Shown: positions 33,839-52,709 of the stretch, piece by piece | How the letters are laid out: each line of letters opens with the position of its first letter | Position numbering within the stretch: position 1 is the first letter of the stretch | Origin: Mycobacterium sp. UM_WGJ | Lineage (GTDB): Bacteria > Actinomycetota > Actinomycetes > Mycobacteriales > Mycobacteriaceae | Assembly (NCBI RefSeq): GCF_000455125.1 | Contig: NZ_AUWR01000007.1 | Location: 1-52,730, forward strand | Direction of reading: 5' to 3' | Length of the DNA stretch: 52,730 bases | The notes under the pieces: generated by a model | What the model saw: the letters and a program-made list of their open reading frames with translations, nothing else | The model's database searches: none | Told to the model about the DNA's origin: nothing | Program-made: the position numbers and the translations under genes

Positions 33839-33878
33839 AATATGGCATCGAGTGCCGTAAAGGAAGTGGGGCTGTCAG

Positions 33879-34475
33879 ATGGGCGGTACGCCGGGTCCGC
33901 AGCCACGCGCCGGGCGGCGTCGCTCCACCACCCCGCAGCACATCACCGACGTGGCGATCGACCTGTTCGCCGCCCGCGGATTCGGCGAGGTCAGCGTTGA
34001 TGACATAGCGCAGGCCGCCGGCATCGGCCGTCGCACGGTGTTCCGGTACTACGCCAGCAAGAACGCCATCCCGTGGGGAGACTTCGACGCGCACCTGCAC
34101 CAATTGCGGGAACTGCTGGACGCTATCGAGCCCGCGGCGCCACTCGGTGACGCGCTGCGTGCGGCGCTGTTGGCGTTCAACACATTCGGCGCGAGTGAGA
34201 CAGCGCGGCACCGCCGACGGATGCGGGTGATCCTGCAGACCGATGAGCTGCAGGCCTACTCGATGACGATGTACGCCGGCTGGCGCAACGTCATCGCGGA
34301 GTTCGTGGCACGCCGGGCGGGTCTGGACGCCGATGAGCTGCGTCCGCAGACGGTGGCGTGGATGATGCTGGGGGTGGCGCTCAGCGCATACGAACGCTGG
34401 CTGGGCGATGAGTCGCTGGTGTTGCCACAGGTCCTCGGCGAGGCGTTCGACGCCATCCGCGGTGGCCTGGACTGA
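33879..34475 (+). CDS. mftR: TetR-family regulator of mycofactocin synthesis
   Basis: 198 residues. The N-terminal TetR helix-turn-helix is [43 protein letters not shown] (about residues 21-64); the C-terminal half is the MftR-type ligand domain with helices around residues 90-190. MftR is described as a repressor released by long-chain acyl-CoA. AGGAAG lies about 13 bases before the ATG. It is divergent from mftA and convergent with the LLM oxidoreductase. Confidence 0.93.
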
Positions 34476-35692: not shown

Positions 35693-36016
<324 letters not shown>

Positions 36017-42501: not shown

Positions 42502-43782
42502 ATGACACTGGATTCATCACCCGCCACACCGACATCGCCGCACCCCTACCATCGCCACGACATCTCCGAAACCGAGTTCTGGGGCAAGGACTTCCGGACC
42601 CGGGACGAGACGTTCGCGACGCTGCGCAGCGAACCGGGCCTGACCTGGCACCGGCCGATGGAGTCCGTGTTCCCCCATCAGGAGACCGGATTCTGGGCGG
42701 CGACCCGGCACGCCGACGTCAAATTCATCAGCCAGCACGAAGAGCTGTTCTGTTCCAGCGAAGGCGTCAGCGTCGACCCGATGCCGGCCGAGATCCAGCG
42801 CAACATGACGTTCTTCCTGGCGATGGACCCACCCGATCACACCCGATACCGCAAGCTCATCAGCTCGGGATTCACGCCGCGGCAGGTCCGGCGCATCGAG
42901 GATCAGATCAAGGCCAACTCCCGCAGCATCGTCGACGACCTCCTGACCCAGTTGCGCAGCGGCGACCAGATCGACTTCGTCGCAAGCTGTTCCGGCATAC
43001 TGCCGATGCGCACCGTCTCCGACATGATCGGCATCGACCCTGCCGACCAGCAGAAGGTCGCCTACGCGGCCGAGTGCCTGTTCAGCAGTAGTGACGACGA
43101 GTACACCTCACTGGAGGAGCGGGCCGTACACGTCATGACGCAGTTGGGCGTGCTTGCCGGCTCCGGCGTCGAGCTGGCACAGCGCCGCCGCGCCGAACCG
43201 CACGATGACCTGATGACCGCGTTGGTCAATGCCGAGGTCGACGGCCACCGTCTCACCGACTCCGAGCTCGGCTCATTCATGGTGCTGCTGGGCTCTGCGG
43301 GCAACGACACCACCAAGCAGGCCACCACGCACGCATTCAAGGCCCTCGTCGAACATCCCGAGCAGCGCGACTGGCTGCTGGCCGACTACGACAATCGGAT
43401 CGGCGGGGCGGTCGAGGAGTTCGTGCGCTGGGCGACGCCGGTACTCGTCTTCGCCCGCCACGCGGTGGTGGACACCGAGGTCGCCGGGACCGAGATCAAG
43501 GCCGGCGAGAAGGTGGCGATGTACTACTGCTCGGCCAACCGCGACGAGTCGGCGTTCGACCGGCCGCACGAGTTCGACGTCACCCGTGCCACCAACCCAC
43601 ACCTGGGCTTCGGCGGCGGTGGCGCGCACTACTGCCTGGGAACCCACGTCGCCCGGATGGAGCTGCGCCACTTGTTCTACGAACTGCTCACCCGGTTGCC
43701 CGAGGTCACCCTGGGCGAGCCGGAATACCTGCAGAGCACCTTCGTGCACGGCATCAAGCGGCTGCCGATCAGCCTGGCCTGA
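42502..43782 (+). CDS. Cytochrome P450 (SDR-linked)
   Basis: 426 residues. The I-helix is GSAGNDTTKQ, with Asn in the usual acidic position; the K-helix ExxR is EEFVRW; the heme loop FGGGGAHYCLG has Cys378. The N-terminal HPYHRHDISETEFWGKDFRTRDETF is of the type seen in actinobacterial steroid/terpene P450s. GAGAGGAA precedes the ATG. It is in one operon with the SDR, so hydroxylation followed by oxidation of the new alcohol is a reasonable inference. No ferredoxin gene is adjacent. Confidence 0.9.
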   Translation: MTLDSSPATPTSPHPYHRHDISETEFWGKDFRTRDETFATLRSEPGLTWHRPMESVFPHQETGFWAATRHADVKFISQHEELFCSSEGVSVDPMPAEIQRNMTFFLAMDPPDHTRYRKLISSGFTPRQVRRIEDQIKANSRSIVDDLLTQLRSGDQIDFVASCSGILPMRTVSDMIGIDPADQQKVAYAAECLFSSSDDEYTSLEERAVHVMTQLGVLAGSGVELAQRRRAEPHDDLMTALVNAEVDGHRLTDSELGSFMVLLGSAGNDTTKQATTHAFKALVEHPEQRDWLLADYDNRIGGAVEEFVRWATPVLVFARHAVVDTEVAGTEIKAGEKVAMYYCSANRDESAFDRPHEFDVTRATNPHLGFGGGGAHYCLGTHVARMELRHLFYELLTRLPEVTLGEPEYLQSTFVHGIKRLPISLA

Positions 43783-43809
43783 CCCTGGTGCCATACTTGC
43801 TCAATCATC

Positions 43810-43828
43810 TACTGTAATCCTTACAGTA
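43810..43828. promoter_or_regulatory. Operator A: perfect palindrome TACTGTAA-TCC-TTACAGTA
   Basis: Two perfect 8-base arms surround a 3-base spacer, ending 28 bases before the GTG of the next P450. It is the best copy of a palindrome found again at 46659 and 49847. The length fits a TetR- or GntR-type dimer. Confidence 0.75.
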
Positions 43829-43856
43829 TGTAGCTACACCCGACGGGAGATCAGCC

Positions 43857-45068
43857 GTGGACAGCCAGGTCGACGACATCGCTGCCGCACTCGACAAGCC
43901 GGCCGACTACCTGAAGAACCCCTATCCGTACTTCCGGAGCAAGCGAGAGGGACTCGGAGTCTTCCCCGGAACGGTGATGGACTACTCCAAGACCCCGGCA
44001 TCGCTTCGGCCCAAGACCCCATTCGCCGCGGTCTCCTTCGAGGCGGTGAATCAGGTCTTCCGCGAGGCGGATTCCTTCAACTCGCACATCTACGACGTCA
44101 CGATCGGGCTGTTCATCGGACCGACGATCCTGGCAATGGAGGGCGAACCGCACCGCAAGCATCGCAATCTGGTCTCGGCGGCGTTCAAGCGGAAATCCCT
44201 GGTGCACTGGGAACCAGAGGTGGTCCGCCCGGTCTGCAGCGCTCTGATCGACGAGTTCATCGCCGACGGCACCGCCGATCTGGTGTCCGGCTTCACCTTC
44301 GAATTCCCCACCCGGGTCATCTCCAAGCTGCTGGGCCTGCCCGAAGAGGACCTGCCCTGGTTCCGCCAGCGCGCGATCGAGCTGATCAGCTACGCCGCCG
44401 ACTACCAGCGGGCATTCGCCGCTTCGGCGGAGTTGAAGGACTATTTCCTGGCCCAGATGGAAAAACGCAAGTCCCACCCGACCTCCGACATCATCGGCGA
44501 GTTGGTCACCGCGGAGGTCGATGGCGAAAAGCTCAGTGACGAAGCGATCTTCTCGTTTCTTCGCCTGTTGCTGCCGGCCGGCCTGGAGACCACGTATCGG
44601 GCCACCAGCAACCTGCTGTACCTGCTGCTCACCCATCCCGAACAGTTCGCCGCGGTGCGCGCCGACCACGATCTGATCGGCGCCGCCATCGAGGAAGGGC
44701 TGCGCTACGAGACGCCGCTGACCACGGTGCAGCGCACCGCCATCCGCGACACCGCGGTGGCCGGCGTCGAAGTTCCCGCCGGCGCCGTCGTCGACGTCTG
44801 CATCGGGTCGGCGAACCGCGACGAGGCCCGGTGGGAACGGCCGGAGGAATTCGACATCTTCCGCAAATGGATTCCGCACATCACGTTCGCCGCCGGCGAG
44901 CACACCTGCATGGGCCTACATCTGGCCCGCATGGAGATGCGGGTCGCGATGGAATGTCTGCTCGACCGCCTCGGCGAGATCACCCTGCTCACCGATGACA
45001 ACCCGCACATCTACGGGCAGCCGTTTCGCTCCCCGCGTTCGCTGCCGGTGACCTTCACCGCCCGATAA
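43857..45068 (+). CDS. Cytochrome P450 under operator A
   Basis: 403 residues from GTG 43857 with GGGAG 7 bases upstream. The I-helix is LPAGLETTYRATS, with Glu at the acid position, the K-helix region is EEGLRYETP, and the heme loop FAAGEHTCMG has Cys351. The N-terminus DYLKNPYPYFRSKREG is short, with no membrane anchor. It is the third P450 of the window and is transcribed alone; it ends convergent with the second aldehyde dehydrogenase. The substrate is unknown. Confidence 0.9.
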   Translation: MDSQVDDIAAALDKPADYLKNPYPYFRSKREGLGVFPGTVMDYSKTPASLRPKTPFAAVSFEAVNQVFREADSFNSHIYDVTIGLFIGPTILAMEGEPHRKHRNLVSAAFKRKSLVHWEPEVVRPVCSALIDEFIADGTADLVSGFTFEFPTRVISKLLGLPEEDLPWFRQRAIELISYAADYQRAFAASAELKDYFLAQMEKRKSHPTSDIIGELVTAEVDGEKLSDEAIFSFLRLLLPAGLETTYRATSNLLYLLLTHPEQFAAVRADHDLIGAAIEEGLRYETPLTTVQRTAIRDTAVAGVEVPAGAVVDVCIGSANRDEARWERPEEFDIFRKWIPHITFAAGEHTCMGLHLARMEMRVAMECLLDRLGEITLLTDDNPHIYGQPFRSPRSLPVTFTAR

Positions 45069-45102
45069 GTCTGCCGGCTCACGCCCGCGCGGCGGCTGCG
45101 GG

Positions 45103-46638
45103 TCAGGTGCCGCGCGGTTTGCGGTAGCCGATCGTCTTGGTCTCCAAGTACTGCGCGAATCCCTCGATTCCGCACTGCCGGCCCCAGCCGCTGCTCTTGT
45201 AGCCGCCGAACGGCGCGTCGGCGCCGTAGTACATGCCGCCGTTGACGCCGATTGCGCCGGTGCGGATCCGGCGCGCCACGTCCAGTGCCCGTCCGTTCGA
45301 TGCCGAGACCACCGCACCGGCCAGCCCGTAGGCGCTGTCGTTGGCGATGTGCACCGCCTCGTCGTCGTCACTGAACGGCAGCATCACCAGCACCGGCCCG
45401 AACACCTCCTGCTGCGCGATGGCGGCGCTGTTGTCGACCCCGACGATCACCGTCGGCTGCACGTAGTGTCCGCCCGCCAGCTCGTCCGGCAGGCCGGTGA
45501 CTTCGCCGCCGCCGGTGGTGATCTCGGCACCGTCGCGGCGAGCCTGCGCGTAGGCGTCGAGCACGCGCTGCTTCTGTGCGGCGCTGATCAGCGGGCCGAC
45601 CAGGGTCTGCGGCAGCGCCGGGTCGCCCACGGTGACGGCCGCGAAGGCCGCGGTGACCGAGGCGACTAACTCGTCGAAGAGGCTGGCATGCACCAGCATC
45701 CGGGTGGTGGCCGCGCAGGCCTGCCCGGCGTGCACGCACACTCCGACTGCTCCGGGGATCACCTTGGCCGGGTCGGCGTCGTCGAGCACGATCAGCGCCG
45801 ACTTTCCCCCCAACTCCAGGAAGGTCCGCTTCATGGTGTCGGCGCTGTTGCGGGCCAGCAGCTTGCCGACCGCGGTGGATCCGGTGAAGGAGACCATGTC
45901 GACCCGCGGGTCGGTGCCGAGCAGTCCGGCGACCTCGTTGGACGGCGTGGGCACCACGTTGAGGACCCCGGCCGGGATGTCGGTGCGCTCAGCGACCAGG
46001 CGGCCCAGCCGGGTGGCGTTCCACGGGGTGTTCGGGTCGGGCTTGAGCACCACGGTGTTGCCGGCCGCCAGGGCAGGCCCCAGCTTGTTGAGGATCACCT
46101 CGACCGGAAAGTTGGACGGCGTGATCGCCGCAACCACACCGACCGGCTCCTTGACGACGGTGCGGACGTTGCGGTCGCCGAACAGTCCGCCACCGTCGAG
46201 TCGCCGCTCCCACTCGAATTCGTCGATCAACCGTCCCGGGTAGCGCAGCCCGTCGACGAGGGGCCAATCCAGCTGTGCCAGTTGGGTCGTCATCACCGGG
46301 CAGCCGACCTCGGCGATCAGCTCGGTGCGCAGTTCTTCCTTCTCCGCCTCCAGCGCCGACTGCAGTTGCGTCAGACAGCGCTTGCGCAGCTCGCGATTGG
46401 TCGACCAATCGGTGTCATCGAACGCCCGCCGGGCCGCACCGATCGCCTGGTGCATGTCACTGCGATCGGCCGCCGCGGTGGTCCCCAACAACTGCCCGGT
46501 GGCCGGGCTGTGATTGCCGAACTCCGCACCCGAGGCCGCCGCCACCAATTTGCCGTCGATCAGCAGGCGCGACTCGGCCGCCGCAGCAGCCCGTTCGCCT
46601 ATCTCCACGCTGCTGGCCCGCTGTCCGACGGCGCTCAC
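45103..46638 (-). CDS. Aldehyde dehydrogenase, ALDH1/2-like
   Basis: 511 residues from GTG 46638 with AAAGGGA upstream; an ATG overlapping it is immediately stopped in its own frame. Blocks: AITPSNFPVEVILNKLGPALAAGNTVVLKPDPNTPW, FTGSTAVGKLL, the general base in LELGGKSALIVLDD, and the nucleophile Cys308 in HAGQACAATTR. It oxidises an aldehyde with NAD(P). It is divergent from the CoA-transferase, and the intergenic gap contains operator B. Confidence 0.9.
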   Translation of the reverse strand: MSAVGQRASSVEIGERAAAAAESRLLIDGKLVAAASGAEFGNHSPATGQLLGTTAAADRSDMHQAIGAARRAFDDTDWSTNRELRKRCLTQLQSALEAEKEELRTELIAEVGCPVMTTQLAQLDWPLVDGLRYPGRLIDEFEWERRLDGGGLFGDRNVRTVVKEPVGVVAAITPSNFPVEVILNKLGPALAAGNTVVLKPDPNTPWNATRLGRLVAERTDIPAGVLNVVPTPSNEVAGLLGTDPRVDMVSFTGSTAVGKLLARNSADTMKRTFLELGGKSALIVLDDADPAKVIPGAVGVCVHAGQACAATTRMLVHASLFDELVASVTAAFAAVTVGDPALPQTLVGPLISAAQKQRVLDAYAQARRDGAEITTGGGEVTGLPDELAGGHYVQPTVIVGVDNSAAIAQQEVFGPVLVMLPFSDDDEAVHIANDSAYGLAGAVVSASNGRALDVARRIRTGAIGVNGGMYYGADAPFGGYKSSGWGRQCGIEGFAQYLETKTIGYRKPRGT

Positions 46639-46658
46639 CCCATCCCTTTCGGAACCCC

Positions 46659-46677
46659 AACCGTAAATATTACAGTA
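46659..46677. promoter_or_regulatory. Operator B: AACCGTAA-ATA-TTACAGTA
   Basis: The same 8-3-8 layout as operator A, with a perfect right arm and two mismatches in the left arm. It lies in the divergent gap between the aldehyde dehydrogenase (GTG 46638) and the CoA-transferase (about 46743) and could control both. Confidence 0.65.
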
Positions 46678-46742
46678 GAATACTTCAATTGGTTCTCCAG
46701 AGGTTCGCACGGCGGCAGGAGCGCGCTGAGTTGATCAAGGTC

Positions 46743-47957
46743 ATGGACGGCTTCCGGGTACTGGAGGTCGCGCAGTTCACGTTCGTCCCGGCGGCCGGGG
46801 CGATCCTGGCCGACTGGGGAGCCGACGTCATCAAGGTCGAGCACCCGGTGCGCGGCGACACCCAGCGCGGCTTCATCCGAATGGGCGGCTTCGAACTCGA
46901 CCCCGACCGACATCCGCTGATCGAACATCCCAACCGCGGCAAGCGCAGCGTCGGCATCGACGTCTCAACCCCGGACGGCCAGCAGGTGCTCTACGAGCTC
47001 GCCGCCTCCGCCGACGTATTTCTGACCAACTACCTGCCCCGGGCACGGCAGAAGAACAAGTTCGATGTGGAGCACATCCGCGCCGCGAATCCGAACATCA
47101 TCTATGCCCGCGGCAGCGCATACGGCGACAAGGGCCCCGAGCGCGACACCGGCGGCTTCGACGGCACCGCGTTCTGGACCCGCAGCGGAGTGGGGCACGC
47201 CCTGAGCCCCGAGCAGCTCGGTGCGCCACTGTCCCAGGGGATCCCGGCGTTCGGCGACTCGGTCGGCGGCATGAACATCGCCGGCGGCGTCGCTGCCGCG
47301 CTGCTGCATCGCGAGCGCACCGGGGAAGCCCTCGAGGTCGACGTCTCGCTGCTTTCCACCGCATGGTGGGCGGCCGGCGCCAGCGTGACCCAGGGCATGG
47401 AGACCGGCGAAGCCATGCGTGCACTTATGCCGCAATCCGGCGGCTTACCGGCGAATCCGTTCCTGGGCAACTACACCACCTCCGACGGCGGCACCATCAA
47501 TCTGTGCATCGTCAGCCCGACCGGATACATCCGGGACACCTTCGAGCATTTGGGCATTCCCGATGCCGCCGACGACCCCCGCTTCTCCGACGTCCTGCCG
47601 CTGATGCAGAACGCCGAGGCGGCCGGCGCACTGATCGTCGACGCAATCGGCTCCAAGCCCTTCGAATACTGGCGTCAGCACCTCAAGACCATGAGGGGCC
47701 AGTGGGCACCGTTCCAGAGCCTGGTCGACCTGGGCTCCGACGAACAGGCCATCGCCAACGACATGATCGTCGAAGTCGAAGCCGGCGACGGTGGGCCGGC
47801 GTTCAAAGTGGTCCGCGGTCCGGTCCAGTTCAACCATGAACCGCTGGAGACGACCCGCTCCCCGCAGGCATCCGAGCACACTGAGATCGTCTTGATGGAA
47901 CTCGGGATCGACTGGGACCGCATCGAAAAGCTCAAGGAGTCAGGCGCTATCGCCTAG
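46743..47957 (+). CDS. Class III (CaiB/BaiF family) CoA-transferase
   Basis: 404 residues. It moves CoA between carboxylic acids. The N-terminal FRVLEVAQFTFVPAAGAILADWGADVIKVEHPVRGD is the family signature; the catalytic Asp is probably Asp140 in GGFDGTAFW after ARGSAYGDKGPERD. The C-terminal domain (FEHLGIPDAADDPRFSD and VVRGPVQFNHEPLETTRSPQASEHTE) is also typical. The start is uncertain: TTG at 46731 has AGGAG at better distance, while ATG 46743 begins the conserved sequence. It is divergent from the aldehyde dehydrogenase and convergent with the thioesterase. Confidence 0.9.
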   Translation: MDGFRVLEVAQFTFVPAAGAILADWGADVIKVEHPVRGDTQRGFIRMGGFELDPDRHPLIEHPNRGKRSVGIDVSTPDGQQVLYELAASADVFLTNYLPRARQKNKFDVEHIRAANPNIIYARGSAYGDKGPERDTGGFDGTAFWTRSGVGHALSPEQLGAPLSQGIPAFGDSVGGMNIAGGVAAALLHRERTGEALEVDVSLLSTAWWAAGASVTQGMETGEAMRALMPQSGGLPANPFLGNYTTSDGGTINLCIVSPTGYIRDTFEHLGIPDAADDPRFSDVLPLMQNAEAAGALIVDAIGSKPFEYWRQHLKTMRGQWAPFQSLVDLGSDEQAIANDMIVEVEAGDGGPAFKVVRGPVQFNHEPLETTRSPQASEHTEIVLMELGIDWDRIEKLKESGAIA

Positions 47958-47969
47958 CCGGCGCCGGAC

Positions 47970-48761
47970 CTACCCATCGTATTTCCGGTCGGCGTCGAAA
48001 TTGAGGTTCGCGATGGCGGTCGACACACCGCTGCCGATCGGGCCGAGAGTGTCGAACAGGCTCGCGCTTCCGGTCGCCACGCCCGCGTCGCTGTAGTGGG
48101 TCAGCGCCGCCAGGCCGATGTACGGGCCGACGGGCAGCCTGCTCAGGGTCAAGGTGTAGTCGGCGTTGATGAACCCCAGCCCCTTGGTGCTGAAATTCGT
48201 CAGCGAGGCGGTGACGTCGACGGCCATCGCCGCCCGGACGAACGGCGTCAGCTCTTCGCCCTCGACCAGGTCGCGGATCTCACGCAGCCACGCATAGCGA
48301 GGCCCGGCGTGCTGCCACGGGATGACTGTGCCGTCCTCGGTGCCGTAGGCCCGGATGAACATGGGCACCGAATCGTCCAGTCTGGCCGGTTCTTCCGGGA
48401 CCGGCGGCAGGTGGACCTCGGTGGTGAAGAAGTCACCGTCGGGCTGCGTACCGCGGCGCAGGTACAGCGCCGAAGCACGGGCCACCAGCTCGCCGCCCTG
48501 CGTCATCTCGGCGTCGATCGCACGCATCCGCGAGCCGGAGCGAACCACCGACGCATCGACCCGCAGCGGTGCACAGGCCACCCGGCGCAGGATCTCGACG
48601 GTCAGTCGCGCCGGCTGCAGGCCGTCGTCTCCCACGTGCTGCTCGACGGCACGGGCCAGCAGTCCGCCCACCACCTGTCCCCCGAGGGTCGGCCCCCACC
48701 CGCCGTGCGCGATCGGGTTCGGCACCAGGTCGCCGTCACGACGAACCACAAAAGGAATCAT
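47970..48761 (-). CDS. Acyl-CoA thioesterase, double-hotdog (TesB-like)
   Basis: 263 residues from the ATG at 48761, which overlaps the stop of the upstream gene (ATGA). GGWGPTLGGQVVGGLLARAVEQ is the first hotdog helix, and the C-terminal GLGFINADYTLTLSRLPVGPYIGL with a SASLFDTLGPIG end is the second; the family hydrolyses acyl-CoA esters. It could free CoA from a dead-end intermediate of the pathway. The open frame continues to 48830 but that part overlaps the upstream gene. Confidence 0.82.
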   Translation of the reverse strand: MIPFVVRRDGDLVPNPIAHGGWGPTLGGQVVGGLLARAVEQHVGDDGLQPARLTVEILRRVACAPLRVDASVVRSGSRMRAIDAEMTQGGELVARASALYLRRGTQPDGDFFTTEVHLPPVPEEPARLDDSVPMFIRAYGTEDGTVIPWQHAGPRYAWLREIRDLVEGEELTPFVRAAMAVDVTASLTNFSTKGLGFINADYTLTLSRLPVGPYIGLAALTHYSDAGVATGSASLFDTLGPIGSGVSTAIANLNFDADRKYDG

Positions 48762-49777
48762 GTCGTACTGCGCTCCAGGTAGAACTGTGCGGCACGGCGG
48801 ATCGCGTGCTCGGTCGGTTCCGGGTGCCATCCCAGTTCCCGGGTGGCCTTGCCGTGGTCGGCGGGCGATGTCAGCGCCATCAGGCGTGCCCCCGTTGCGG
48901 TGAACGCGAAGTCACGACGCAGCAGAGCGCCCAGGGCGCTCACCAGGTGGCCCGCCACATGCAGGATCGACATCGGTACACCGATACGTGGCGGTGTGGC
49001 TCCGACCGCTTCTGCTGCGATGGTGAGCATCTCGCGCTGGCTCATATACCGCTCGGAAATGATGTAACGCTCACCGATCCGTCCGCGGTCTGCGGCCTGC
49101 AGCATCGCGCGGGCGGCGTCGTCGATTCCCACCACCTCCGAACCCACGCCACGCACGTAGGCCGGCATCCTGCCCAGCGCGGCGAACTGAACGAGCATGC
49201 CTTGGCGCGGCTGCCAATCCGGTGGGCCGTACGGATTCGACACGTTCGTGATCACGGCCGGCAGGCCGCGGTCGGCGACATAAGACAACACCACGCGTTC
49301 GGCCTCACGACGGGAGGCGATGTAAGCGCCGCCTTGGTCGGCCCAGTTGAACGGCGTCTCTTCGTCCACCGTTTCGCCGTTACGGCCCACCGCGATAGTG
49401 CCGATGGTGCTCAGGAACACGAACCGGTCCAGGTCGGCGTCGGCGGCCACCTCCACGACGTTGCGCAGCCCCTCGACGTTGGTGCGGAACAACGGCGCGG
49501 GGTCGCGGAGTTCAGCCCTGGTGTCGACGACGCAGTAATACACGACGTCACGATCCGCCATGGCCGCGGCGACGGCCTCAGTGTCGAAGATGTCGCCATA
49601 GTGCCGCTGAATGTCGAGTCCGTCGATCCCCTGGGTAGAACTCGAACGGCGTAACAGCACCCGCACATCGTCACCGCGGGCGACCAGGTGGCGGGTGACG
49701 CAGGCACCGACGTTTCCGCTGGCGCCCATGACGAGCGCACGCCGCCGATCGACCGCCGACTCATCGTTCGAAGTCAT
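48758..49777 (-). CDS. NAD-dependent epimerase/dehydratase family protein (extended SDR)
   Basis: 339 residues. The Rossmann motif is MGASGNVGACV (18-24). The catalytic Tyr152 lies in GGAYIASRREAE, where the usual YxxxK lysine is replaced by Arg156. FLSTIGTIAVGR carries the Ser/Thr. It resembles dihydroflavonol-reductase or 3beta-HSD-like proteins, which act on cyclic hydroxy/keto groups. AAGGGG precedes the ATG. It is in one operon with the thioesterase and divergent from the DUF35 gene; operator C sits between. Confidence 0.85.
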   Translation of the reverse strand: MTSNDESAVDRRRALVMGASGNVGACVTRHLVARGDDVRVLLRRSSSTQGIDGLDIQRHYGDIFDTEAVAAAMADRDVVYYCVVDTRAELRDPAPLFRTNVEGLRNVVEVAADADLDRFVFLSTIGTIAVGRNGETVDEETPFNWADQGGAYIASRREAERVVLSYVADRGLPAVITNVSNPYGPPDWQPRQGMLVQFAALGRMPAYVRGVGSEVVGIDDAARAMLQAADRGRIGERYIISERYMSQREMLTIAAEAVGATPPRIGVPMSILHVAGHLVSALGALLRRDFAFTATGARLMALTSPADHGKATRELGWHPEPTEHAIRRAAQFYLERSTT

Positions 49778-49846
49778 CCCCGGGCCCCTTACCGTGACCG
49801 TCGGGCACTGGGAGAACCCCGCTGGTCAACTCGCGCCATCGTACAT

Positions 49847-49865
49847 TACTGTAAGCATTACAGTT
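49847..49865. promoter_or_regulatory. Operator C: TACTGTAA-GCA-TTACAGTT
   Basis: The 8-3-8 palindrome with a single mismatch in the last base, in the 113-base divergent gap between the extended SDR (ATG 49777) and the DUF35 gene (ATG 49891). It ends 25 bases before the DUF35 ATG, close to the 28 bases seen for operator A. Confidence 0.7.
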
Positions 49866-49890
49866 AATAGACCCATTGCGGGGAGGTCCC

Positions 49891-50304
49891 ATGCAGAAGG
49901 CGCTAGCTCCCGACATCTCGACCTGGCCGGAGGTAAGCCCACAGCTGGTCGGCAGTCGCTGCGCGGACTGCGACGCCACGGTCTTTCCGGCCCAGCCGCG
50001 CTGCCCGAGCTGCAGCGGCGACAAGATGAGCCGGGAACTGCTGCCGCGCACCGGAACCCTGGTGGCCTGGACCACCCAGGGCTTTCCGCCTGGGGCGCCG
50101 TATCTGGGCCCCACCGGAAAGGACTTCGTGCCGTACGGCGTGGGTCTGGTACAGCTCGGCGATGTCATCCGGGTCGAAGGCCGCCTCACCGAGAACGACC
50201 CGGACACACTGGAATTCGGCATGCCGGTTGAGTTGGTCATGGTGCCGTTCACCTCCGACGCCGAGGGCAACGAGATCATCACCTTCGCCTTCCGGCCGGT
50301 TTAG
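49891..50304 (+). CDS. DUF35 zinc-ribbon/OB-fold protein
   Basis: 137 residues. The zinc ribbon is Cys24-x2-Cys27 and Cys38-x2-Cys41 (CADC, CPSC), followed by an OB fold (GTLVAWTTQGF to MVPF). DUF35 proteins such as ChsH2 bind acyl-CoA and form complexes with thiolase-like partners. GGGGAGG before the ATG at 49891 fixes the start. The thiolase-like gene follows 10 bases downstream, the usual partner arrangement. Confidence 0.9.
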   Translation: MQKALAPDISTWPEVSPQLVGSRCADCDATVFPAQPRCPSCSGDKMSRELLPRTGTLVAWTTQGFPPGAPYLGPTGKDFVPYGVGLVQLGDVIRVEGRLTENDPDTLEFGMPVELVMVPFTSDAEGNEIITFAFRPV

Positions 50305-50314
50305 GAGATCGGCA

Positions 50315-51463
50315 ATGGCCAATGAGGTAGCGATCATCGGAGTCGGGCTGCACCCGTTCGGGCGCTTCGAGGGCAAGTCTGCGATGGCGATGGGGGTCGA
50401 CGCCATCTTCGCCGCGGTCGCCGACGCGCGGGTGGACTGGAAAGACATCGGCGCCGCCACCGGCGGCAGCTGGACGGTGGCCAACCCGGACGCGATCGTC
50501 GGGATGGTCGGGCTGTCGGGCATCCCGTTCACCAACGTGTTCAACGCGTGTGCCACCGCGGCCAGCGCGGTCAAGGTCTGCGCGGACGGTATCGCGCTGG
50601 GCGACTACGACATCGGCATTGCCGTCGGCCTGGACAAACACCCCCGCGGGGCGTTCACCGAAGACCCGGCGCTGGTCGGGATGCCGCGGTGGTACGCGGA
50701 GAACGGCCAGTATCTGACCACCCAGTTCTTCGGCATGAAGGCCAATCGTTACCTGCATGATCACGGCATCTCCCAGCAGACGCTGGCCAAGGTCGCCGCC
50801 AAGAACTTCCGCAACGGCGCGTTGAACCCCAACGCCTTCCGGCGCAAGCCGATCTCCGAGGAGGACATCCTGGGCTCGGCGATGCTGAACTACCCGCTGA
50901 CCCAGTACATGTTCTGCGCCCCCGACGAGGGCGCGGCGGCGGTGGTGATGTGCCGCGCCGACATCGCGCACCGCTACACCGACAAGCCGGTGTACCTGCG
51001 CGCGGTGGAGGTCCGCACCCGGCGCTACGGCGCCTACGAGGTGAACACCACCTTCGCCCCGGTCACCGAGGACGTGGCTCCCACCGTGTACGCCGCCCGC
51101 GCCGCCTTCGAAAAGGCCGGTGTCGCACCCAAAGACGTCGACGTGATCCAGTTGCAGGACACCGATGCCGGGGCCGAGGTCATCCACATGGCCGAGTGCG
51201 GCTTCTGCGCCGACGGCGACCAGGAGAAGCTGCTCGCCGACGGCGCGACCGAGATCAGCGGGCCACTGCCGGTCAACACCGACGGCGGCCTGATCGCCAA
51301 CGGCGAACCGATCGGCGCCTCGGGACTGCGCCAGATTCACGAGCTGGTCCGCCAGCTACGCGGTGAAGCGGGCGATCGCCAGGTGCCGGGCGAGCCGAAG
51401 GTGGGGTTCGCCCAGCTCTACGGCGCACCGGGCACCGCTGCGGCCACCATCCTGACCCGCTAG
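50315..51463 (+). CDS. Thiolase-superfamily lipid-transfer-like protein (Ltp2/SCP-x thiolase type)
   Basis: 382 residues. The first half has the thiolase nucleophile loop FNACATA with Cys79. The usual GHPxGATG near the C-terminus reads NGEPIGASG, with Glu331 where classical thiolases have His. That substitution, and the adjoining DUF35 gene, argue for an Ltp2-like retro-aldolase or another non-classical role, not ordinary thiolysis. TAGGAG before the ATG at 50315 supports the start. It lies in an operon with DUF35 and the amidohydrolase. Confidence 0.88.
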   Translation: MANEVAIIGVGLHPFGRFEGKSAMAMGVDAIFAAVADARVDWKDIGAATGGSWTVANPDAIVGMVGLSGIPFTNVFNACATAASAVKVCADGIALGDYDIGIAVGLDKHPRGAFTEDPALVGMPRWYAENGQYLTTQFFGMKANRYLHDHGISQQTLAKVAAKNFRNGALNPNAFRRKPISEEDILGSAMLNYPLTQYMFCAPDEGAAAVVMCRADIAHRYTDKPVYLRAVEVRTRRYGAYEVNTTFAPVTEDVAPTVYAARAAFEKAGVAPKDVDVIQLQDTDAGAEVIHMAECGFCADGDQEKLLADGATEISGPLPVNTDGGLIANGEPIGASGLRQIHELVRQLRGEAGDRQVPGEPKVGFAQLYGAPGTAAATILTR

Positions 51464-51479
51464 CAGCAAGGACCACGCC

Positions 51480-52709
51480 ATGAGTCAGTTCCGTGACGCA
51501 CCGATCTTCGATGCCGACCAACACATGTACGAAACCCCCGAGGCACTGACCAAACACCTGCCGGAGAAGTACGCGCGGGCAGTCCAATTCGCCCAGATCG
51601 GCCGTCAGACCCGGATCATCATCAACGGCAAGGTGAGCGACTTCATCCCCAACCCCACCTTCGAGCGGGTCGCCGCGCCGGGTGCACACGAGAAGTTCTT
51701 CGCCGGGGAGAACACCGAGGGCCTGACTCTGCGCGAGATGCAAGGCCCCGCCATCGAAGCACCGGCGGCCACCCGCAACCCCACGGACCGGGTCGCCGAA
51801 CTTGACCGCCAGGGCGTCACCGAAGCGTTGAACTACCCCACGCTGGCCAGCCTGGTCGAGCACTCCAGTGCCGACGACCCCGAGCTCACCTTGGCCATCA
51901 TCCACGCGTTGAACCAGTGGATGGCCGAACACTGGACCTATAACTACGGCGGCCGGGTGTTCTCCACGCCGATCATCAACCTCTCCGAAGTCGAGGGCGC
52001 CCAGCGGGAACTGGAGTACATCCTCAGCCAGGGTGCAGCGGTGGCGCTGATCAAACCCGGACCGGTCAACGGTATCCACGGTTGGCGCTCCCCGGCGCTG
52101 CCGGAGTTCGACCCATTCTGGCGTGATGTGGAATCTGCCGGCCTACCCATCGTGCTGCATGCCAGCTTCCCGCCGCTGGACGACTACGTCGGCCGCTGGG
52201 AACCGCCCTACACGCAGAACTTCATGACTCAGAGCGCATTCCGCTGGATGGTGTTGGGGCACCGGGAGATCGCTGACATGATCACCGCGCTGATCTGCCA
52301 TGGCACCCTGACCCGCTTCCCCAAGCTGCGCATCGCCAGCGTCGAGAACGGCAGTTCCTGGATCCGGCCGCTCTTCGATGACTTCGGGGACCTCTACAAG
52401 AAGATGCCGCAGAACTTCCCGGAGCATCCGCACGACGTGTTCCGGCGCAACATCTGGGTCAGCCCGTTCTGGGAGGGCGCCGTCTCCGATGTGGTGGAGA
52501 CCGTCGGCTGGGACAAGGTGCTGTTCGGGTCGGACTATCCGCATCCCGAGGGGCTGGCCGAGCCGAATGGATTCTGGAAGTACGCCGAGGGCATGGACGT
52601 CCGGCGGACCTATGACTTCATGGGTGACAACGCTCGCCGGTTCATGGGACGCCCGCTGGCGAACCCGGATCCGGCCGCGCTCACGCCACCGGAGCTCGCC
52701 GACGCCTGA
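51480..52709 (+). CDS. Amidohydrolase-2 family metal-dependent hydrolase
   Basis: 409 residues, complete. The family has a TIM barrel with one metal. The N-terminal IFDADQHMYE (Asp11, Asp13, His15) replaces the common DxHxH strand, His in GLPIVLHASFPP and the Asp of VLFGSDYPHPEG supply further ligands, and GDNARRFMG is the usual end. Members decarboxylate or hydrolyse cyclic and aromatic acids; PNPTFERVAAPGAHEKFF is common in actinobacterial members of unknown substrate. It starts 16 bases after the thiolase-like gene and is the last complete gene; 21 non-coding bases remain after it. Confidence 0.87.
   Translation: MSQFRDAPIFDADQHMYETPEALTKHLPEKYARAVQFAQIGRQTRIIINGKVSDFIPNPTFERVAAPGAHEKFFAGENTEGLTLREMQGPAIEAPAATRNPTDRVAELDRQGVTEALNYPTLASLVEHSSADDPELTLAIIHALNQWMAEHWTYNYGGRVFSTPIINLSEVEGAQRELEYILSQGAAVALIKPGPVNGIHGWRSPALPEFDPFWRDVESAGLPIVLHASFPPLDDYVGRWEPPYTQNFMTQSAFRWMVLGHREIADMITALICHGTLTRFPKLRIASVENGSSWIRPLFDDFGDLYKKMPQNFPEHPHDVFRRNIWVSPFWEGAVSDVVETVGWDKVLFGSDYPHPEGLAEPNGFWKYAEGMDVRRTYDFMGDNARRFMGRPLANPDPAALTPPELADA

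Follow-up and report, generated by a model that had tools for sequence, protein, structure and literature searches.

Do three copies of one palindrome in a catabolic locus of Mycobacterium sp. UM_WGJ belong to a single regulon and, if so, which regulator reads them? The stretch analysed here, called the window throughout, is the whole contig NZ_AUWR01000007.1 (52,730 nucleotides; contig C7 of genome G000, which comprises 4.47 Mb in 116 contigs and to which the C-numbers refer), and the element in question is an 8-3-8 palindrome with the consensus TACTGTAA-N3-TTACAGTA. An earlier note on this DNA had read the three copies as a local catabolic regulon under one regulator. Our results on the scatter of the motif, its conservation, a TetR-family gene and MftR support that reading and refine it in two respects: the regulator lies outside the window and is tied to the sites only by synteny, and the regulon seems, from sequence, to be larger than three sites, with weaker copies preceding genes around the TetR gene. 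We assign a probability of about 0.83 to the proposal that the three palindromes are predicted operators of one TetR-family repressor, encoded at C24:18033-18782, which would control a cytochrome P450/beta-oxidation-type regulon.

Palindromes in the window

The three copies lie at 43810-43828 (TACTGTAATCCTTACAGTA, a perfect palindrome with 0 mismatches to the consensus), 46659-46677 (AACCGTAAATATTACAGTA, 2 mismatches) and 49847-49865 (TACTGTAAGCATTACAGTT, 1 mismatch), none with an assigned strand, and are referred to below as operators 1, 2 and 3. Operator 1 ends 28 bp 5' of the GTG start (43857) of a cytochrome P450 gene, P450 b; operator 2 stands between divergent aldehyde dehydrogenase (ALDH) and CoA-transferase genes; and operator 3 separates an epimerase-like gene from a divergent OB-fold/thiolase pair. 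Positions and mismatch counts agree with those of the earlier note, as does its statement that all three sites are intergenic (by our own gene calls, with start codons picked by eye), at one tandem and two divergent promoters, making five possible transcription units. At up to 3 mismatches these are the only matches in the 52,730 bases, where the chance expectation is 0.01 (mean of 100 dinucleotide shuffles; largest 1). The whole genome holds 4 places at ≤2 mismatches, against 0 for a reversed-pattern control, and 5 against 4 at ≤3 mismatches, so the genome count at the looser threshold is not above background; two of these fall beyond the window, at C11:108454, with 2 mismatches, and at C24:16196, with 3.

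Conservation upstream of orthologous genes

Orthologues of P450 b, of the ALDH/CoA-transferase pair and of the OB-fold/thiolase pair were gathered by protein, without use of the motif, from the genomes with a match (107, 54 and 114 of the 148), and the upstream regions of the best 30 loci per set were inspected. The perfect palindrome precedes P450 b in 30/30 loci, starting 41-68 bp 5' of the gene start. Copies with 1-2 mismatches lie upstream of the ALDH/CoA-transferase orthologues in 30/30 loci and of the OB-fold/thiolase orthologues in 27/30, the other three having none (best 6-7 mismatches); in control pieces of equal size taken from within the genes, the best match never fell below 6 mismatches. 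The conservation in relatives that the earlier note expected is thus found, at ≤2 mismatches, in each of the three sets. In the P450 b, ALDH and thiolase sets, the last restricted to those 27 loci in which a site is present, the arms carry 2.00, 1.82 and 1.99 bits of information, compared with 0.60, 0.27 and 0.96 bits for the spacer and 0.31-0.88 bits for the 20-base flanks. Near-invariant arms around a drifting spacer are the pattern of a protein-bound two-fold site. On this evidence the three palindromes behave like operators, and we predict them as such.

Spacing at the thiolase genes varies. In many relatives (L234, L235, L238-L249 and similar thiolase loci), the operator lies ~50-80 bp before the thiolase gene and not ~470 bp, as if the OB-fold gene were missing between them.

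A candidate TetR-family regulator on contig C24

The motif is also found close to a TetR gene in related genomes. The G000 orthologue (C24:18033-18782, 249 residues; the C24 TetR) has PF00440 TetR_N (1.2e-13) and PF02909 TetR_C_1 (2.4e-10) domains, both over cut-off, and its 14 nearest named relatives are all from Mycolicibacter (L072-L085, 85-95% identity); Mycolicibacterium vaccae NBRC 14118 likewise has an orthologue (L121). An AlphaFold2 model of the protein was poor (mean predicted local distance difference test score 57). The sequence TACCATAGGCTTTACGGTA at C24:17909 lies between this gene and a divergent enoyl-CoA hydratase gene, that is, in the promoter of the TetR gene itself, and the corresponding copy in relatives reads TACTATAGGACTTACAGTA and similar. 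Among the best 80 named loci of 303 relatives, a copy at ≤4 mismatches occurs within 400 bp upstream of the TetR gene in 77/80 and at ≤3 mismatches in 63/80, against 153/3592 random windows of the same loci at ≤4 mismatches, some of which will hold true sites. The earlier note had proposed a search for a TetR or GntR gene preceded by the palindrome; a degenerate copy lies in front of the TetR gene in G000, as it does in the related loci. In genome G101, a single contig (C97) holds both the amidohydrolase gene and the TetR gene, and there the leftmost gene of C24 adjoins the counterpart of the window's last gene, an order that places the C24 TetR ~18-22 kb beyond the right end of the window by synteny.

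The regulator and the sites also occur together across genomes. The 148 genomes were searched for the motif (≤2 mismatches) and for the TetR by profile (E ≤ 1e-40; tables copied by hand): 104 have TetR and sites, 14 have TetR and no sites, 5 have sites and no TetR, and 25 have neither (Fisher p 9e-14, uncorrected for kinship). The 118 TetR-positive genomes have a mean of 3.08 sites against 0.46 for the reversed-pattern control, and the 30 TetR-negative genomes a mean of 0.20 against 0.20; at least 3 sites are found in 62/118 of the former and 0/30 of the latter. P450 b orthologues scoring at least 598 bits occur in 91 genomes, and 91/91 have both the TetR and at least one site.

Several observations weigh against the C24 TetR as reader of the window sites. 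A strict sigma-70 consensus scan found no promoter at 43700-49950. The copy at the TetR gene's own promoter has 4 mismatches to the consensus and is weaker than the window sites, 3/80 TetR loci have no copy at ≤4 mismatches, and the join between C7 and C24 is drawn from synteny. The genome contains 106 TetR_N matches, one in the window (mftR) and another on C24 (C24:34829), so that linkage, autoregulation and co-occurrence are the grounds for the assignment. Co-occurrence, in turn, is qualified by the kinship of the genomes, by the 14/118 TetR-positive genomes without a site at ≤2 mismatches, and by the 13 genomes with at least one site among the 27 TetR-positive genomes that have no P450 b orthologue (the other 14 have no sites). 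Finally, in some relatives a shorter second TetR adjoins strong sites.

Alternative regulators

The alternative that survives best is that a different, unlinked regulator reads the sites and that the C24 TetR gene is merely another of its targets. The 106 TetR_N matches offer many such proteins, and the C24 TetR's own operator is the weaker one; however, the C24 TetR is syntenic with the targets and found in 91/91 P450 b genomes, and genomes that lack it hold background site numbers only. We regard this alternative as unlikely.

It is very improbable that the sites belong to a regulator of the Rv0767c type. The G000 locus of matching gene order, on C81, holds two GGACA-N2-TGTCC palindromes (L164:8007 and 8130) that are unlike the window sites; they sit between an ALDH gene over the Rv0768-type cut-off and a divergent 212-residue TetR-type gene, with P450 genes at the locus. 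Gene order suggests that the 212-residue gene is the Rv0767c orthologue. What favours this regulator is the likeness of its target classes, since the motif X assigned to the orthologue goes with phytosterol-induced P450, ALDH and short-chain dehydrogenase/reductase (SDR) genes, and the two systems would share a TetR-family regulator, P450/ALDH/SDR targets and an autoregulatory site (PMC6593523). As a prior description of the window palindrome, motif X was provisionally set aside: the C81 palindromes, which are perhaps the operator behind motif X, speak against it, as do the accessible parts of that paper, although its logo was not compared.

MftR is a still less credible reader of the sites. 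Its gene (33879-34475; family model 286 bits, cut-off 225) lies ~10 kb from the first site, and MftR resembles the C24 TetR in family, neighbourhood and divergent promoter. Its footprinted operator, however, is the palindrome T-N2-GGCA-N5-TGCC-N2-A (PMC8728441), which none of the three sites fits; the only exact copy in the window, TATGGCATCGAGTGCCGTA at 33841-33859, is directly 5' of mftR, and the two proteins differ in their C-terminal domains (TetR_C_14 in MftR, TetR_C_1 in the C24 TetR). MftR was accordingly rejected on operator sequence, which agrees with the earlier note, where the consensus was not recognised as a described mycobacterial regulator site. The note's further remark that mftR is the only regulator gene in the window holds in that it is the sole TetR_N match there, other regulator classes having had no systematic scan over every open reading frame. 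Chance or an RNA hairpin or attenuator is the least likely alternative, for although a palindrome within a transcribed leader would fold, the chance expectation is 0.01, the drift seen in the spacer is not matched in the arms, whose letters stay the same with no compensating exchanges, and sites 2 and 3 lie between divergent genes.

Predicted extent of the regulon

With ≤1 mismatch allowed, a degenerate pattern shaped on the operators of relatives, TACYRWARNNNTTWCRGTA, finds six genomic matches, namely the three window sites, C24:17909, C24:16196 and C11:108454; the control gives 0 (forward) and 1 (reverse). The random and mostly intragenic scatter against which the earlier note had warned is not seen: all 6 places are intergenic by our own gene calls, C24:16196 only if the probable ATG (16139) of the enoyl-CoA hydratase gene 15297-, which the site precedes by 57 bp, is the true start. 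The site at C11:108454 is identical, spacer included, in 8/8 loci examined (G000 and 7 close genomes); because the spacer is also unchanged, conservation does not single out the arms, and the site remains a candidate. It is a diverged palindrome between carboxyltransferase and APH/EcKL-like kinase genes (L055:9955-9973), and a second OB-fold/thiolase pair (L055:17858-19442), 80% and 62% identical to that of the window, is found ~8 kb away.

Around the C24 TetR, the 80 named loci were scanned gene by gene at ≤4 mismatches, dropping hits below 45% identity or too near the locus edge. Matches precede the TetR gene in 76/80 loci, the divergent enoyl-CoA hydratase gene 17105- in 40/42, and the pair 20903-/21664+ in 48/49 and 57/65; they are less frequent before the SDR gene 16291- (30/65), the enoyl-CoA hydratase gene 15297- (25/71) and the thiolase gene 18779- (10/50). 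The remaining genes have 0-3 of 51-71, those with 0 serving as the control in place of a separate random one. The matches before 17105- and 16291- read as the TetR operator in reverse complement and hence are probably one and the same site as it. In G000 itself, the promoter of 20903-/21664+ contains TACTGTAGCTATCACGATA (4 mismatches), and the thiolase gene beside the TetR gene (18779-) has no site (best 7 mismatches). The predicted arrangement is one of strong symmetric operators at the upper-pathway genes of the window, with weaker copies at the regulator gene and at those of beta-oxidation type.

Proposed mechanism

Under the proposal that the C24 TetR reads the sites, each 8-3-8 palindrome would be occupied by a TetR dimer. 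An outward-pointing TACAGT is present in each arm and fits TANNNT, the -10 element of mycobacterial housekeeping promoters, so that the dimer, once bound, would mask the -10 elements of the two divergent promoters and block both. The same TetR would repress its own gene and the neighbouring beta-oxidation-type genes through the weaker degenerate copies, until released by a pathway metabolite, for which an acyl-CoA or an early oxidised intermediate is the likeliest candidate. We infer the -10 overlap, the binding, repression rather than activation, and the ligand. Release by a CoA ester or early intermediate is proposed by analogy with MftR, which is released by acyl-CoA (PMC8728441), and with KstR2, whose ligand is HIP-CoA (PMC6593523).

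Some relatives have a further regulator gene. At least 2 matches to the TetR profile at E ≤ 1e-40 occur in 33/148 genomes, and a second TetR of 213 residues lies between P450 b and the ALDH gene in L035 (16599-17240) and L046 (10995-11636); G000 has no gene for it. Over 226 aligned positions, this protein shares 49% identity with the C24 TetR and keeps the stretch GVGVTSIYWYFR unchanged. A two-sensor switch would result if the two copies recognised the same operators. A possible, though doubtful, extension is a switch in two tiers, in which perfect or near-perfect palindromes would shut the upper-pathway promoters (P450, ALDH/CoA-transferase, OB-fold/thiolase) tightly and degenerate ones would tune the regulator together with the beta-oxidation core. 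The regulator would, in some relatives, have duplicated into a full-length and a ~213-residue copy, the shorter with an almost unchanged DNA-reading region, and two sensors with different ligand pockets might compete for one operator set and so order the pathway in time.

Relation to known systems

The proposed system is of a common kind of regulation and not a new mechanism. The KstR and KstR2 cholesterol regulons of mycobacteria likewise have a TetR-family regulator, palindromic operators before catabolic genes and before the regulator's own gene, and P450, KshA-like, CoA-ligase and thiolase targets. They differ in the regulator protein, and the KstR/KstR2 operator consensus is not known to resemble TACTGTAA-N3-TTACAGTA. 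The tetracycline repressor TetR shares the TetR_C_1 domain, and the nearest solved relatives of a C24 TetR orthologue are TetR-derived and tetracycline repressors (many of the 45 matches with E values of 1e-16 to 1e-11). The C24 TetR differs from it in its length of 249 residues and in its surroundings, its neighbours being catabolic genes with no efflux pump seen adjoining; the orthologue L036 scores 82 bits with the tetracycline-repressor model and does not reach the cut-off of 265.

We found no description of the operator among the papers listed in searches of open-access full texts, nor in the accessible parts of PMC8728441, PMC6593523, PMC4482099 and PMC10470581. The analysis provides a candidate regulator, its operator and its putative targets for an extensive and widely conserved catabolic locus adjoining mycofactocin genes, for which the same searches likewise listed no description. 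An operator-reporter exposed to candidate substrates could show which compound the pathway breaks down, with a possible bearing on the position of the locus next to the mycofactocin genes.

Genes beside the sites

Operator 1 would serve P450 b (43857..45068, +; Pfam p450), one of two cytochromes P450 in the gene set around the sites. The targets of operator 2 would be the ALDH gene (45103..46638, -; Pfam Aldedh; probable GTG at 46638), which scores 607 bits to TIGR04284, under its cut-off of 775, and a family III CoA-transferase gene (46743..47957, +; Pfam CoA_transf_3; probable ATG at 46743), both starts having been chosen by eye. Operator 3 would serve genes on both sides. On one side is the gene of an epimerase/3beta-hydroxysteroid dehydrogenase-like NAD(P) protein (48758..49777, -; Pfam Epimerase, 3Beta_HSD; ATG at 49777), followed 3' and probably in the same unit by an acyl-CoA thioesterase-like gene (47970..48830, -; Pfam 4HBT_3). 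On the other side, a ChsH2-type OB-fold protein gene (49891..50304, +; Pfam OB_ChsH2_C, zf-ChsH2; ATG at 49891) probably forms one unit with a thiolase/lipid-transfer-type gene (50315..51463, +; Pfam Thiolase_N and C), whose nearest PDB chain is a benzoylsuccinyl-CoA thiolase subunit, and with an amidohydrolase gene (51480..52709, +; Pfam Amidohydro_2).

To the left of the sites are genes for a KshA-like Rieske oxygenase (best PDB match 3-ketosteroid 9alpha-hydroxylase, E 1.2e-33), an isochorismatase-fold protein and an acyl-CoA synthetase exceeding the PRK07798 cut-off, as well as mftC-mftG and mftR by family models. FadD19 is presumably also of the PRK07798 type. The presence of KshA-like, ChsH2-like and PRK07798-type genes gives a hint that the pathway's substrate may be a branched or polycyclic isoprenoid.

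The same region contains an 86-residue flavin monooxygenase remnant (35693-35953, -), of which residues 6-84 alone align (80% identity) with the full protein of 541 residues in L035. Relatives have a strong operator at the flavin monooxygenase promoter, and the best match in G000 has 5 mismatches (36004), as if the gene and its operator had decayed together.

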